Of a stretch of DNA of 64,000 nucleotides, positions 5,463-49,590 are shown one piece after another. A program made the translations under genes and the position numbers. The stretch covers positions 1-64,000 of the forward strand of contig NZ_WMIG01000016.1 of assembly GCF_009711205.1 (NCBI RefSeq), in the 5' to 3' direction. Within the stretch, counting starts at the first letter, position 1; every line of letters begins with the position of its first letter. Origin of the DNA: Paracoccus litorisediminis (GTDB taxonomy: Bacteria; Pseudomonadota; Alphaproteobacteria; Rhodobacterales; Rhodobacteraceae). Under the pieces are notes generated by a model, which was not told the DNA's origin, did not search any database, and was given only the letters and a program-made list of their open reading frames with translations.

Positions 5463-5552
5463 ATGCAGAACGGCGAAAATTCAGGGGCTTCCGGGGTGGT
5501 GACCGCAGCACGGCTCTCGGTCGCGCCCATGATGGATTGTGGCGACAAGTAA
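5463..5552 (+). pseudogene. dusA': Detached original 5' end of dusA
   Basis: An ATG at 5463 opens a frame reading MQNGENSGASGVVTAARL then SVAPMMD, after which it runs into phage sequence and stops at 5552. SVAPMMD-W-T-D is the conserved N-terminus of tRNA-dihydrouridine synthase A. The rest of that gene sits 43 kb away at 48616 onwards, where the same SVAPMMD codons continue into WTDRNCRMVHRM. These 25 or so codons are therefore the host's original dusA start, cut off by prophage integration. Confidence 0.88.
5514..5539. other. Prophage attachment site, left junction (attL)
   Basis: The 26 bases starting CTCTCGGTCGCGCCCATGAT match 48616-48641 at 22 positions. They encode the same LSVAPMMD residues of DusA. 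Host dusA lies to the left and phage DNA to the right. Such imperfect repeats inside dusA are the known hallmark of dusA-specific integrases. The exact crossover point within the repeat cannot be read from this sequence alone. Confidence 0.85.
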
Positions 5553-5618: not shown

Positions 5619-5894
5619 TCAGCGTGATAGTGCCTTTGCTTCCTTGCGTGCCGCCGACGCTTTTGCGTCGATGAACTGGGCAAGATCAGTCAGATGGACC
5701 ATCCTGGCGCCTTTCTGGCTGCTCTCCATTCGGACTAAAGGCAGCGCGATTTCGCCGCTTGCTATCTTCCGCAGGAAGACGGGCAGGGTCAGGGGTGCAA
5801 AGAAGTCGCGGCAAACTACATCGGCGCCGATCATAGCGCGCCCCTCGTACTGGGCCATGAGCAGCCAGATCGTACTGATGCCCTGATTCCCCAT
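5619..5894 (-). CDS. PrtN-like pyocin-activator family regulator
   Basis: This 91-aa protein shows the PrtN family pattern: WLLMAQYEGRAMIGADVVC near the start, then RDFFAPLTLPVFLRKIASG, IALPLVRMESSQK, and GARMVHLTDLAQFIDAKA. PrtN activates pyocin genes after DNA damage in Pseudomonas. Family members in alphaproteobacterial prophages are usually short DNA-binding regulators of unknown target. The start at 5894 has an AGGAGGG site 7 bases upstream and overlaps the upstream stop as TGATG. It is the last gene of the leftward early operon. A role in lytic-gene activation is inferred from the family, not shown. Confidence 0.8.
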   Translation of the reverse strand: MGNQGISTIWLLMAQYEGRAMIGADVVCRDFFAPLTLPVFLRKIASGEIALPLVRMESSQKGARMVHLTDLAQFIDAKASAARKEAKALSR

Positions 5895-6106
5895 CAAGCA
5901 GCCCTCCTAATCTCTTCCGCGCAGGCCTTTGCCAGAGCGTCGCGGCATTCTGCGCAGCAATCGATCATCTCCGACCCGAAGGAATCGGTTTCGCCCAGGA
6001 TGCGAGCGATGGCCGGACGGTCGGGGTGATCGTCGCACATTGTGCCGGGCGGAACGGGAGGGCGCGCGCCGGGCAGGGTGCTGATGGGTCCGGTAACATC
6101 AGCCAT
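5894..6106 (-). CDS. Small cysteine-rich phage protein, unknown function
   Basis: This 70-aa product is not recognised. It carries CDDHPD and later CCAEC, spacing that could bind a metal ion, followed by a charged helix (RDALAKACAEEIRRAA). The start ATG at 6106 overlaps the end of the DUF5131 gene by 8 bases, and the stop overlaps the PrtN-like gene, so it sits in a tightly coupled operon. A longer in-frame extension upstream is antisense-like shadow sequence and was not used. Confidence 0.6.
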   Translation of the reverse strand: MADVTGPISTLPGARPPVPPGTMCDDHPDRPAIARILGETDSFGSEMIDCCAECRDALAKACAEEIRRAA

Positions 6107-9102: not shown

Positions 9103-9341
9103 GAGAAAAGGACCGCGAGCATCGATCCAGCGGCGGCGATCACCATCAGAGCCAGGCACATTCCGGCACCGATAAGGATGGTCACCAGCCGATTCAGGAC
9201 GCGCTTCTGGCGTGTCGTAAGGACGAGCACGTCCATTCCTTCGTCTGGCGACATGTCGTCGGCCGAGAGGTGGAAATCAGCTGCGGCGCGGCCCGAGGCG
9301 AAAGGGTGACGGTCCTGGTGCTCGCTGTTCAGTCGCGTCAT
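9099..9341 (-). CDS. Small single-pass membrane protein
   Basis: This 80-aa protein has a soluble N-terminal half and a C-terminal hydrophobic helix (LVTILIGAGMCLALMVIAAA, residues about 54-74) preceded by RQKRVLNR. This predicts one membrane segment with the positive side inside. No family is recognised. It overlaps its neighbours by 4 bases at each end. The start MTRLNSEHQDRHP lies far inside a longer open frame whose upstream part is antisense-like. Confidence 0.6.
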   Translation of the reverse strand: MTRLNSEHQDRHPFASGRAAADFHLSADDMSPDEGMDVLVLTTRQKRVLNRLVTILIGAGMCLALMVIAAAGSMLAVLFS

Positions 9342-9529
9342 CGCTTGTTCCCCCGGCCGGTTGCCGGGCGACGGCGCTGGATCACGGTGAAACCAAACGC
9401 GCTGGCCGCGACCTTGAAGGCCAGCAGTCGGACGCTGGCCGGGACAGCTGCTGCTTGCTCGGGATTGGCGATGATGTCGCGCGCGGCCTTGATCGCGACC
9501 TGGTCGAGAGGAAGGGAAGGGGTTCGCAT
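9338..9529 (-). CDS. Hypothetical protein, first gene of the leftward operon
   Basis: This 63-aa product begins MRTPSLPLDQVAIKAARDI and ends in an arginine-rich tail (TVIQRRRPATGRGNKR). The start at 9529 is chosen because GGAG lies 6 bases upstream; ATGs at 9541 and 9565 are also in frame. It is the first gene after the leftward promoter at 9565-9593. Function unknown; the basic tail would suit nucleic-acid binding, but that is only a guess. Confidence 0.55.
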   Translation of the reverse strand: MRTPSLPLDQVAIKAARDIIANPEQAAAVPASVRLLAFKVAASAFGFTVIQRRRPATGRGNKR

Positions 9530-9564
9530 GACGCGCTCCATCCAGTGCGTTTCGGATGGAAACA

Positions 9565-9593
9565 AAAATGAATGTCAGGAATATTCCTGTCAA
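9565..9593 (-). promoter_or_regulatory. Leftward early promoter with embedded operator
   Basis: Read leftwards: a perfect TTGACA -35 (9593-9588), then the palindrome GGAATATTCC (9587-9578) inside a 17-base spacer, then CATTTT as a weak -10 (9570-9565). The wider 20-base symmetry spans 9573-9592. The same arrangement occurs at 10129-10166. A half-site-like TAGGAATTTT lies at 9610-9619. Repressor bound here would block RNA polymerase on the early operon. The 9594-9778 gap up to the repressor gene holds nothing else I can support. Confidence 0.75.
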
Positions 9594-9778
9594 TCCTTAA
9601 AATTCTTGTTAGGAATTTTCATACTGCGACATCAGTCGGTGTGGGCGCGGGTCTGCATTGCCGAGATGCTGGGATTTCGGGCTGAGTTTACTGCTTGCTT
9701 TGGAGATCGCATTGGAAAACGTTGATAGGTTTGCCAAACTGTTGGCATCAATGACCGACCAGGAATTTGATCGATTGA

Positions 9779-10078
9779 TTACTCTTTTGCTGAGCTCGGA
9801 CCAGCTATCATCGCAGCCATGTCAAGCCAGCCTTGCTGGCGATCCGGAGGAAGGCCGCGAAATGCTTCGATCAGCGCCCGCTCGGCTGTTGTCCGATCGT
9901 CGGAAAGCAGGTCAGTAATCTCCACCTCGAGGGCGGTGGAGAGCTTGCGAAGGATGCGCAGCGTCACCCCATCGAAGCCGTTCTCGATCTTTGAGATCAT
10001 CGACTGCTCGACTTTAGCCATTTCGGCCAGCTCTGCTTGACTGAGGCCGCGGTCGCGGCGAATGCGCTGAAGGTTCAT
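9779..10078 (-). CDS. XRE-family phage repressor (CI-like)
   Basis: This 99-aa protein has an N-terminal helix-turn-helix of the XRE/Cro-CI family (residues 2-60): IRRDRGLSQAELAEMAKVEQ, SMISKIENG, LRILRKLSTALEVEI. The C-terminal 40 residues (AERALIEAFRGLPPDRQQGW) form a short helical dimerisation-type tail rather than a LexA/CI peptidase domain. Induction therefore would not follow the classic RecA self-cleavage route. It is divergent from the Cro-like gene, with the shared operator region between them. The role as lysogeny repressor is inferred from position, family and operators. Confidence 0.82.
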   Translation of the reverse strand: MNLQRIRRDRGLSQAELAEMAKVEQSMISKIENGFDGVTLRILRKLSTALEVEITDLLSDDRTTAERALIEAFRGLPPDRQQGWLDMAAMIAGPSSAKE

Positions 10079-10120
10079 GGGCGCATGATCCTTCTGTCCG
10101 CAAGGATAATCAAACCAGCC

Positions 10121-10166
10121 TCAGGAATAAAATGCTTGACGGGAATATTCCTGACAATCATATAAT
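10121..10166. promoter_or_regulatory. Divergent promoters sharing one operator
   Basis: The palindrome GGAATATTCC (10142-10151) is the spacer of two back-to-back promoters. Rightwards: TTGACG -35 (10136-10141), and TATAAT (10161-10166) or the overlapping CATATA (10159-10164) as -10, driving the Cro-like gene. Leftwards: TTGTCA -35 (10157-10152) and CATTTT -10 (10134-10129), driving the repressor. A second site-like sequence, TCAGGAATAAAATG (10121-10134), overlaps the leftward -10. The geometry matches the promoter at 9565-9593, so one protein probably controls all three. Confidence 0.75.
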
Positions 10167-10171
10167 TTGGT

Positions 10172-10432
10172 ATGGTCACACTCGATATCCATCTCCTGCA
10201 GTCTGGCGAGAAGCAGGCAGACTTCGCCCAGCGGGTTCAGGTCCGCCAAGGGACGATTTCGAAGCTGTGTCGGCGCCAGATGACTCCAAGTCTCAGGCTC
10301 GCGCAAAGAATTGAGCGAGCGACGGGTGGAAAAGTCCCTGTGTCGGTCTGGGTGTCGAGTGAAGCCATTGTTGCCGAACGTCCGGATATTCCGGCCCCAA
10401 CCATCGAGCATCCCCATGTCCCAACCTCTTAA
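10172..10432 (+). CDS. Cro-like helix-turn-helix protein
   Basis: This 86-aa protein has an HTH near its N-terminus (residues 13-45): EKQADFAQRVQVRQGTISKL then CRRQMTPSLRLAQRIERATG. This is the length and layout of a Cro repressor. The start ATG at 10172 lies only 5 bases after TATAAT, so the transcript may start at or next to the start codon (leaderless). It is the first gene of the rightward operon, and its end overlaps the next gene's start. Function is inferred from fold and position. Confidence 0.72.
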   Translation: MVTLDIHLLQSGEKQADFAQRVQVRQGTISKLCRRQMTPSLRLAQRIERATGGKVPVSVWVSSEAIVAERPDIPAPTIEHPHVPTS

Positions 10433-10751
10433 TACCCCTGACTCGCGTCAGGCTGCCTCGGCACGAATTCAAATGTCCCGTGACAGGATTTTTGACGGTC
10501 GTGCCCGCACGGCTGCGGCAGCGCGCCGTGCCCATACCAGCCATGGCCCGGATCGCGACGCGTTCATGCGTCGTTGGTCGCTGCTGATGATCGCCAGCTT
10601 CGGGTCGCGCGAAGAGTGCGCTGTCCATTTCGGTGTGGCCTTTCAGACCGCCTGCAACTGGTTCGATGCGATCAACCGTCCCTATGGCGATGTCGTCGCC
10701 CATGCGGTCGAAACGCTGCCCCGATATTTCGAGATCATGCAGGTACGGTGA
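10416..10751 (+). CDS. Putative DNA-binding phage protein
   Basis: This 111-aa protein starts MSQPLNTPDSRQAASARIQM. After a basic stretch (RTAAAARRAHTSHGPDRDAF) it has FGSREECAVHFGVAFQTACN followed by WFDAINRPYG, which resembles a helix-turn-helix with a recognition helix. In the rightward early operon after the Cro-like gene this would suit a second regulator or a replication accessory protein. No named family is claimed. Confidence 0.6.
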   Translation: MSQPLNTPDSRQAASARIQMSRDRIFDGRARTAAAARRAHTSHGPDRDAFMRRWSLLMIASFGSREECAVHFGVAFQTACNWFDAINRPYGDVVAHAVETLPRYFEIMQVR

Positions 10752-12318: not shown

Positions 12319-13455
12319 GTGAACCATGATCACCGTTTGACCGAGGCAAAAGCTCTGTTGATGGCAGATGTCGTTGCGCGGCTGGAACTGGCCGGGTTGG
12401 TCCGCGCCGGCGGTGAGCTGGTCGGGCCATGCCCGCAATGCGGTGGGCGGGACCGGTTCGGCATCAACCTGCAGACGGGGCAATTCCTGTGCCGCAAGGA
12501 ATGTGGGCCGATCGCCAAGGGTGATCAGATCGCCTTGGTGCAGCATGTCATGGGTATGGATTTCCGGGCCGCACTGGAATGGCTGTGTGGCCCGGCCGAG
12601 GGCCTGACAGAGGCCGAGCGTATCGAGCGCCAGCGCAAGGCCGAGGACAATCGGCGCAGGCAAGACGGTATATCGCGTCAGCGGCGCGAGGATTCTATCC
12701 GCGCGGCACGCGAGATCTGGTTTGCCGCGCGCTCGGCCGAGGGCACTGCCGTTCGCCAATACCTGACTTTACGCGGAATCAGCCCGGACCTGTTCCCAAC
12801 GCTGCCACAAACTGTCCGTTTCGACCCAACCGCCCGCTATACGATCCCTGCGGATCGTCCCGGCCAGTGGGATGTAATCCATGTTGGTCCCGCCATGATC
12901 TGCGCGGTGGTCGATGCCGCGGGTCGGGTCACAGCTGTCCACCGTACCTGGCTGGATCTGGACCAGCCCAAGGGCAAGCTGATCCTGCCGGACCCCCGCC
13001 AGAAGGGCGAGACCTTGCCGGCCAAGAAGGTGCTGGGATCGAAGAAGGGCGGTGCAATCCGCTTCATTACCCCCAGAGGCTGCGACACCATGATCATGGC
13101 CGAGGGGGTCGAGACGACCCTTTCCGCCCTGATCGCGGATGCGGCTCCGCAGGCCACCGCCTATTGGTGCGGCGTTGATCTGGGCAACATGGCCGGCCGC
13201 ATGCAGCGTGGCCCCGGCCTGAAATTCGCCGGTCTTCCCGACCTGGACGATTCCGAAGCATGGCTGCCGCCCGAATGGGTCCGGCACCTGATCTTCGTCA
13301 AGGACGGCGACAGCGACCCCAAGCTGACGACCGCCAAGCTCAAGGCCGGCCTGCGCCGCGCCATGATCAAGCGACCCCGTTTGCGCGGGTCGATCGTCCA
13401 TGCCGGGGAGGGCAGGGACCTCAACGATATCCTGATGGGACAGAAAGATGAGTAA
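12319..13455 (+). CDS. Phage primase: zinc-finger and Toprim domains
   Basis: This 378-aa protein has an N-terminal zinc ribbon (CPQCGGRDRFGINLQTGQFL then CRKEC, residues about 38-60) as in phage primase-helicases. The middle linker is rich in charged residues. The C-terminal Toprim domain shows the acidic MIMAEGVETTLSALI box (about 255) and LIFVKDGDSDPKL (about 325). It probably lays down RNA primers for phage replication together with the helicase two genes downstream. The start is GTG at 12319; an ATG at 12361 is the alternative. Confidence 0.85.
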   Translation: MNHDHRLTEAKALLMADVVARLELAGLVRAGGELVGPCPQCGGRDRFGINLQTGQFLCRKECGPIAKGDQIALVQHVMGMDFRAALEWLCGPAEGLTEAERIERQRKAEDNRRRQDGISRQRREDSIRAAREIWFAARSAEGTAVRQYLTLRGISPDLFPTLPQTVRFDPTARYTIPADRPGQWDVIHVGPAMICAVVDAAGRVTAVHRTWLDLDQPKGKLILPDPRQKGETLPAKKVLGSKKGGAIRFITPRGCDTMIMAEGVETTLSALIADAAPQATAYWCGVDLGNMAGRMQRGPGLKFAGLPDLDDSEAWLPPEWVRHLIFVKDGDSDPKLTTAKLKAGLRRAMIKRPRLRGSIVHAGEGRDLNDILMGQKDE

Positions 13456-48510: not shown

Positions 48511-49590
48511 ATGAACCCACTAAAACCAGCAAAAACAGGACAGAACGGAAGGCTCAGGAAGTTGCTTAATCAGGCGGCGAAGATCGATTTAATCAAAGAA
48601 AACAACGCCGCGTTGCTTTCGGTCGCACCGATGATGGACTGGACCGACCGCAACTGCCGGATGGTCCATCGCATGCTGTCGCGCCGCGCGTTGCTTTATA
48701 CCGAGATGGTGACGGCTCAGGCCATCATCCATGGTGAGCGGGGGCGGCTGTTGGATTACGACGCGGTCGAGCATCCCTTGGCGCTGCAACTGGGTGGGTC
48801 CGAACCGGCTCTGCTGGCCGAGGCCACGCGTATCGCCTCGGACTGGGGTTATGATGAGATCAACCTGAATGTCGGCTGTCCCAGCGACCGCGTGCAATCG
48901 GGTTGTTTCGGCGCGGTGCTGATGACCATGCCGCAACTGGTCGCGGATTGCGTGCAGGCGATGCAGAAGGTCAGCCCGGTCGAGATCACGGTGAAATGCC
49001 GCATCGGCGTCGACGATCAGAACCCCGAGGAAGTGCTGCCCGCCTTTATCGCGCTGATGCGTGACAGCGGTGTGCGCCGCCTGTCGATCCACGCCCGCAA
49101 GGCATGGCTGCAGGGTCTGTCCCCGCGTGAGAATCGCGAGATCCCGCCGCTGGACTATCCGCTGGTTCACCGCATGAAGGCGCAGTTCCCCGATCTGCAT
49201 CTGTCGATCAATGGCGGCATCGCCTCGATGGATGAGGTGCGGGGCCATCTGCAGGTCATGGACGGCGCAATGGTCGGTCGCGCGGCCTATCACCAACCGT
49301 GGGACATTCTGGGGCAGGCGGACCTGTTATGGGGCGATGAGCCCACATTCACCAATCCCTTCGACGCAGCCATCGCCATGCGGCCGGTGATCGACGCGCA
49401 TGTAACGAATGGCGGAAGGCTGCATCAGTTCGGGCGCCACATGCTGGGCATGTTCCATGGCCGCCCCGGCGCGCGGGGCTGGCGCAGGTTGCTGTCCGAG
49501 GGCGCGTCCAAGGCCACGGACCGGGCCTCGGCGCTGGCGGTCTATGATGCCGCGCTGGCCGAGGTAGCAGCCGGGGCCGAAGCGGCTTAA
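48511..49590 (+). CDS. dusA: tRNA-dihydrouridine(20/20a) synthase, with phage-supplied 5' end
   Basis: This 359-aa flavoenzyme reduces uridine 20/20a in tRNA D-loops. Family motifs are LSVAPMMDWTDRNCRMVHRM, ALQLGGSEPALLAEAT, EINLNVGCPSDRVQSGCFGA (catalytic cysteine in GCPSDRVQSGCFG), VTVKCRIG-type EITVKCRIGVDD, LSIHARKAWLQGLSPRENRE and SINGGIASMDEVRGHL. Everything before SVAPMMD (about 38 codons from ATG 48511) comes from phage DNA. The native first 25 codons lie at 5463. ATG 48511 has no good ribosome site; TTG 48463 is an in-frame alternative. The body is intact, so function is probably kept. The stop overlaps mazG's stop (TTAA). Confidence 0.93.
   Translation: MNPLKPAKTGQNGRLRKLLNQAAKIDLIKENNAALLSVAPMMDWTDRNCRMVHRMLSRRALLYTEMVTAQAIIHGERGRLLDYDAVEHPLALQLGGSEPALLAEATRIASDWGYDEINLNVGCPSDRVQSGCFGAVLMTMPQLVADCVQAMQKVSPVEITVKCRIGVDDQNPEEVLPAFIALMRDSGVRRLSIHARKAWLQGLSPRENREIPPLDYPLVHRMKAQFPDLHLSINGGIASMDEVRGHLQVMDGAMVGRAAYHQPWDILGQADLLWGDEPTFTNPFDAAIAMRPVIDAHVTNGGRLHQFGRHMLGMFHGRPGARGWRRLLSEGASKATDRASALAVYDAALAEVAAGAEAA
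48616..48641. other. Prophage attachment site, right junction (attR)
   Basis: CTTTCGGTCGCACCGATGAT and the next six bases repeat 5514-5539 with four mismatches, inside codons for LSVAPMMD of dusA. Phage DNA lies to the left and the dusA body to the right. The mismatches fall at synonymous or near-synonymous positions, so either crossover point restores a DusA-like reading frame. Confidence 0.85.

Follow-up and report, generated by a model that had tools for sequence, protein, structure and literature searches.

The stretch of DNA analysed here (the window; 64,000 nucleotides of Paracoccus litorisediminis contig NZ_WMIG01000016.1, positions 1 to 64,000) holds a temperate phage integrated in a Paracoccus-like genome, together with its immunity switch. 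We consider it likely, with a probability of about 0.78, that this switch is lambda-like, with the operator placed in both lytic promoters, a separate promoter for the repressor gene, additional half-sites and two leaderless regulator genes. As read from sequence, it is predicted to work like a reduced lambda switch. Having a repressor with its own adjoining promoter, it would be nearer to classic lambda than was initially assumed, and the lysis-lysogeny control region that it gives for Paracoccus phages is both compact and conserved.

The prophage and its regulator genes

When 10 proteins were scanned against Pfam and PHROGs, a large terminase, an MT-A70 methyltransferase and excisionase-family proteins were identified. 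The CI-like repressor (9779..10078, minus strand; 99 aa) matched Pfam HTH_3 over residues 3-57 (4e-13), and the Cro-like protein (10172..10432, plus strand; 86 aa) matched the same family (2.3e-6). The two genes are divergent, with a 93-bp region between them. The best phage-record match of the pair was the annotated CI-like/Cro-like pair of Paracoccus phage Pthi1, with 63% identity for the repressor and 53% for the Cro-like protein. The repressor had HTH matches only, with no peptidase family among its Pfam matches; no S24 self-cleaving domain was found, and the PHROGs matches shown were regulators matched over the HTH part. In alignments the recognition helices of repressor and Cro were alike, both reading Q-x-x-(I/V)-S-(K/R).

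Sequences resembling the start of dusA were recognised by eye at both prophage ends (about 5514-5539 and 48616-48641), as was an integrase-like ORF at 48459-47359. The integration site probably lies within dusA, which the consulted part of the literature gives as a known phage integration target. The dusA-like end repeat is imperfect, and no exact attachment repeat of at least 13 bp was present between the two end stretches compared. A PrtN-like protein (pyocin activator/excisionase family) is encoded near the left end (5619-5897, minus strand). An ARAGORN call of tRNA-Gln at 12943-13033 (minus strand) falls within an ORF that looks primase-like by eye and is possibly spurious.

Relatives of the regulator pair were collected by profile searches, with the best 80 of 93 kept. 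The fetched loci held 101 repressor-cro pairs, which were reduced to 45 distinct regions once repeat fetches of one phage had been merged; L009, L032 and L040 had no usable pair. We counted the 32 regions in which E was below 1e-18 for both proteins; the other 13, L010 and L035 among them, were dropped because at least one of the two proteins did not reach this limit. The closest set comprised 11 phages, or 9 when three near-identical ones were merged. The window is counted as one of the 32 phages, of these 11, and of the 12 in which left sites were located.

A probable shared operator in the two lytic promoters

The motif TTGAC[A/G]-GGAATATTCC-TG occurs twice in the window, once in the early-left promoter and once in the cro promoter. 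The original prediction had the motif recurring three times; the motif is real, but there are two sites, one of which had been read in both directions. Exact copies of GGAATATTCC were found at 9578-9587 and 10142-10151 and nowhere else in the window. With one mismatch allowed, the bare 10-mer gave 4 matches against 1.56 expected, which is statistically unremarkable (at least 4 in 6 of 100 shuffles). Across the whole genome GGAATATTCC lies in 11 places, two of them within the prophage, and the four other genomic copies that were viewed (L001-L004) had no TTGAC directly 5' of them. GGAATATTCC alone is not rare, and for this reason the extended motif was used to assess significance. When 3 or fewer mismatches were allowed, the 18-mer TTGACAGGAATATTCCTG matched only the two sites, each on both strands, against an expectation of 0.02 matches. 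A window scan with the 20-bp form TGWCAGGAATATTCCTGWCA gave 0 and 1 mismatches at the two sites and 5 at the next best place elsewhere, so that no third copy of this form exists within the window. A terminator-like call at 9589-9576 (minus strand) is the palindrome itself and was not accepted as a terminator.

The early-left promoter (9565..9593, minus strand) consists of TTGACA at 9593-9588, the palindrome, seven further bases and CATTTT at 9570-9565, with a 17-bp spacer; the letters bear out the prediction for it in full. Palindrome scans of the window placed the left operator, TGTCAGGAATATTCCTGTCA, at 9573..9592. The first gene of the left operon (9338..9529, minus strand; 63 aa, no family found) has a normal ribosome-binding site, and the MT-A70 methyltransferase gene was located in the same operon. 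The left sites of 12 phages were located by a pattern holding TTGACAGGAATATTCC (its own variant in one phage), by which TTGACA is imposed; a free view came from a search anchored on the core alone, in which TTGACA stood 5' of the left core in all 11 phages found, with a 12th found by eye. CATTTT was present in 12 of 12.

The early-left 5' leader (9564-9536, minus strand) could form a hairpin, CCATC[C/G]...[C/G]GATGG, that ends at the GGAG ribosome-binding site. It is found at the same place in 10 of the 11 other phages, L020 being the one without it, and in one phage it starts with GCATC. One pair is changed on both sides, C-G in 5 phages and G-C in 6.

The cro promoter (10136..10164, plus strand) has TTGACG at 10136-10141, a 17-bp spacer and CATATA at 10159-10164, ahead of the ATG at 10172. 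The cro operator, TTGACGGGAATATTCCTGACAA, spans 10136..10157, and the palindrome centre lies between 10146 and 10147. The predicted end point at 10166 implies an alternative -10 box on the plus strand, TATAAT at 10161-10166, with a spacer of 19 bp and not 17. Among the nine merged relatives TTG was kept in 8 in one register, and xAxxxT was seen in 6 at 19 bp and in 1 at 17 bp; the xATA of CATATA was kept at 17 bp, and the -7 T was kept in 6 of 9 at 19 bp. According to the consulted part of PMC8407463, most promoters of Alphaproteobacteria are without T at -7, which CATATA as the cro -10 box would fit. A TTG was present 35-37 nt before the cro ATG in 32 of 32 phages, a distance partly imposed by a search range of 31-42 nt upstream. 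The three near-identical phages have an ATAATATTCC core, and in them both the TTGAC of the cro -35 box and the palindrome lie one base off.

A strict sigma-70 scan of 9400-10500 called none of the three claimed promoters, and promoters were judged by alignment across phages in its place. That the operator stands at the start of the spacer and is common to the early-left and cro promoters, as originally proposed, is supported by conservation across phages and by the joint change of the core described below. It is very probable that the phage regulators share this palindrome as their operator. The palindrome centre falls between the -35 and -10 boxes, some 25 bp before the points where the cro and early-left transcripts are expected to start, a position that fits repression by blocking of the polymerase.

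Position of the repressor promoter

A conserved promoter was found directly at the start codon of the repressor gene (10085..10113, minus strand), with TTGATT at 10113-10108, a 17-bp spacer, GATCAT at 10090-10085 and 6 nt to the ATG. The pattern TTGnnn-N17-nAnnAT-N6-ATG was present in all 11 closest phages, with the -35 TTG at 10113-10111 and the A, A and T of the -10 box within 10090-10085 (minus strand). When the three near-identical phages were counted once, this was the only one of 708 registers with 9 of 9; none of 1000 column shuffles reached 9, and six reached 8 (spacers 16-18). A looser form (TTG, 16-18 bp, xAxxxT, 5-7 nt, start codon) was present in 28 of 32 phages against 0.8 expected from shuffles that preserve base composition only, the relatives not being independent. 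The exact 17/6 form was present in 20 of the 32, and the pattern was missing in 4.

The repressor promoter had been predicted at 10157-10129, on the other face of the cro palindrome, so that one bound dimer would switch both genes at once. TTGTCA (10157-10152) and CATTTT (10134-10129) are present in the window at the 17-bp spacing. However, this -35 TTG was kept in only 2 of the 32 and 2 of the 11 phages, the window being one of the two, and the placement is not supported. In the merged set TTG was seen in 2 of 9 and the -10-like xAxxxT in 7 of 9. The conserved promoter abuts the repressor ATG and, on its other side, stops about 23 bp short of the palindrome (which is to its right); since it lies outside the palindrome, the two genes need not be switched by the same dimer. 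Counted from the repressor start, the palindrome (10136-10157) covers about -58 to -79, and the repressor promoter would not have to be blocked by a dimer bound to it. We therefore regard it as quite improbable that the repressor is transcribed from the palindrome's other face and shut off along with cro, although the window letters and the -10 count agree with it: the promoter at the ATG is far better conserved, and a lysogen that shut its repressor with the same dimer would need a finely balanced negative feedback.

Both repressor promoters might also work, one over the palindrome and one leaderless at the ATG, by analogy with PY54, in which, according to the consulted part of the report, two cI promoters were found and the upstream one was more than 10-fold more active than the other. 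The same letters and the xAxxxT of 7 in 9 would agree with this, and a second, weak repressor promoter over the palindrome is possible; but the -35 box of the upstream promoter is not conserved here, and we judge the arrangement unlikely.

Auxiliary half-sites

A half-site, CAGGAAT (10122..10128, plus strand), lies 18 bp from the equivalent half of the cro palindrome. CRRGAAT was present at this position in all 11 closest phages, 18-19 bp from the palindrome, and conservation over 10122-10129 amounted to 1.80 bits per base, compared with 0.48 in the spacer of the repressor promoter. At the early-left promoter an upstream half-site pair, ATTCCTAACAAGAAT (9602..9616, minus strand), has its GAAT end 19 bp from the palindrome centre, and GAAT was found at this position in 12 of 12 phages. 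Over all 32 phages the peak of half-site similarity was modest. The control region had been called simpler than lambda's; each promoter does have one full palindrome, but both also have the conserved extra half-site 18-19 bp upstream.

Relative to the repressor start, the half-site at 10122-10128 covers about -44 to -50. Should it form one half of a site with its centre at 10128/10129, arithmetic puts this centre at about -50 relative to the start of the repressor transcript and -43 relative to that of cro; relative to the left start, the left half-site has a similar position, -44. The half-site may serve cooperativity, activation or Cro.

By eye, L070, L091, L092 and L097 have one more copy of the half-site upstream of cro (GGGTATA and similar), which overlaps the -10 box of cro about 15 bp past the palindrome half. 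The distant phages L080, L082 and L138 have a different operator layout at cro, with repeated GCGTATA-like half-sites upstream and no clear palindrome at the -35 box.

Conservation and joint change of the operator core

In the genus scan of 125 genomes, the phage's own included, a repressor homologue (E <= 1e-12) was found in 10. The pattern TTGACRGGAATATTCCTG was present in 9 of the 125, all of them among these 10, and each copy lay within a few hundred bases of the repressor homologue. The tenth genome, G509 (44% identity), had no exact copy of TTGACRGGAATATTCCTG, and a reversed control pattern was absent from all 125 genomes. Members of the genus have control regions identical to those in named Paracoccus records, which points to Paracoccus as the genus of the host. 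Family-wide, the repressor was found at E <= 1e-12 in 3 of 394 genomes, again including its own. A scan of viral contigs gave 19 pattern stretches, 10 of which (on 9 contigs) were of this Paracoccus prophage's type; the other 9 had no repressor or Cro hit and were taken as unrelated. In all 11 closest phages the distance from repressor to cro ATG was 94 bp and gap-free, while pairwise identity of the 93-bp region fell to 34%, indicating a gap-free footprint.

The two-site pair is conserved in related prophages, and in distant relatives the core is changed on both arms. The core at the cro -35 box was a perfect 10-bp palindrome in 17 of the 32 phages, of four kinds that differ by changes matched on both arms (GGAATATTCC in 11, GGTATATACC in 3, TGAATATTCA in 2 and CGAATATTCG in 1). 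The other 15 were imperfect at that register, including the 3 close phages with ATAATATTCC; the most distant ones had no palindrome at the cro -35 box. An identical core was found at the left and cro sites in 12 of the 32, the left copy lying downstream of the repressor, on the opposite strand and right after TTGAC. In L070, L076, L091 and L092 the left operator, also right after TTGAC, shared with cro the same core other than GGAATATTCC, and the 26-30 other cores tried all matched the left site less well. The four perfect core kinds, together with these four phages in which the two sites share a changed core, give a basis on which to begin deciphering the recognition code of the two regulators.

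In 20 of the 32 phages, the 1.56-1.57 kb examined contained no exact second core. L048 and L078 had one-mismatch copies only, that of L048 at the auxiliary place. L031 and L095 had one-mismatch left copies after TTGACT and TTGATC; these and the one-mismatch left copy of L081 were rejected, some cores of other phages matching equally well (12 of 26 for L031, 7 of 19 for L081 and 4 of 19 for L095).

With such similar recognition helices, either protein could bind the palindrome, and Cro might be the only one to do so, with the repressor acting through the half-sites. We give this a slim chance. The left operator is far from the repressor promoter and would need the repressor for its off state in the lysogen; moreover, L012, L016 and L046 have a perfect left palindrome and a degenerate one at cro.

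Leaderless signature of both regulator genes

A Shine-Dalgarno-like tetramer was found before cro in only 1 of the 32 phages and before the repressor in 3, compared with 12 of 12 before the first left gene, indicating that both regulator genes look leaderless and the left operon does not. Taken with the promoter spacing, these counts form a strong sequence signature for cI and cro mRNAs that start at the AUG. In the window cro (ATG at 10172) is probably leaderless. The window's repressor is among the three with a Shine-Dalgarno-like sequence (AGGA, 10 nt before the ATG) and is probably leaderless too.

Proposed mechanism and known systems

From these results we infer which protein would bind which site, where transcripts would start and the sign of regulation at the repressor promoter. 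The 20-bp palindrome TGWCAGGAATATTCCTGWCA, present once each in the cro and early-left promoters, would supply the -35 box with its outer part and start the spacer with its core. A repressor dimer on it would sterically block RNA polymerase at both lytic promoters. Transcribed from its own promoter outside the palindrome, the repressor gene could stay on in the lysogen while cro is off. Repressor or Cro probably makes a second contact, weaker or cooperative, at the half-sites (10122-10128, between the cro and repressor promoters, and that upstream of the early-left promoter); such a contact could lock repression or adjust the activity of the repressor promoter. The cro and repressor mRNAs would begin at the AUG or within a base or two of it.

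Lambda and 434 have a divergent repressor and cro with a shared operator in both lytic promoters. Like them, the temperate prophage carries HTH repressor and Cro genes in divergent orientation and, by its letters, the same operator in both lytic promoters; the 434 repressor was a weak profile match of the repressor alignment (2.9e-5). Unlike lambda, with its three full sites, it has one full palindrome and one half-site per promoter, and its 99-aa repressor lacks the C-terminal S24 domain of the lambda type. C proteins of restriction-modification systems are small HTH-only regulators for which leaderless transcripts are known, and C.BclI was the best solved-structure profile match of the repressor alignment (1.2e-10), with C.AhdI also among the matches. 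In contrast to C-protein controllers, the repressor is paired in the prophage with a Cro-like gene that stands among phage genes. C-protein controllers have a linked restriction endonuclease/methyltransferase operon; the left operon of the prophage contains the MT-A70 methyltransferase gene, and no endonuclease was among the 10 proteins scanned. The lambda cI gene is transcribed as a leaderless mRNA, as stated in the consulted part of the PY54 paper; in the prophage cro also appears leaderless by its signature, which differs from lambda.

In PY54 immB, as far as that part of the paper goes, cI and cro are divergent, both mRNAs were leaderless by RACE and Cro binds a single operator. PY54 is thus a published precedent for leaderless cI and cro genes with a single Cro site. 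Cro there occupies OR3, as much as 40 bp away from the cro promoter, and is thought to repress cI and not itself. The operator of the prophage is not of this kind, beside the repressor gene, but lies inside the cro promoter, overlapping its -35 box and spacer. In the literature search, a leaderless repressor/Cro system in Alphaproteobacteria appeared in no title or abstract start among the matches listed. The consulted part of a preprint on Phaeobacter prophages (PMC13345283) states that these lack cI/Cro homologues, and the words "operator" and "leaderless" are absent from it.

It is possible, as a tentative extension, that such switches form a widespread class in which the operator doubles as the lytic -35 boxes, a second contact is provided by a half-site in fixed position at about -44 and both regulators are leaderless. 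If so, the lysis-lysogeny choice in this class would be sensitive not only to repressor dose but also to how well the cell can initiate translation on leaderless mRNAs.

The words "operator" and "promoter" are absent from the main text of the Pthi1 paper. Its consulted part describes Pthi1 as an active phage and reports CI- and Cro-like HTH proteins for the set of Paracoccus phages under study, with an S24 domain in only one CI, that of another phage. In its sequence, Pthi1 (vB_PthS_Pthi1, MK291444) agrees with the prophage in the homologous repressor and Cro, the 94-bp spacing, the presence of both operators and the arrangement of the promoters.
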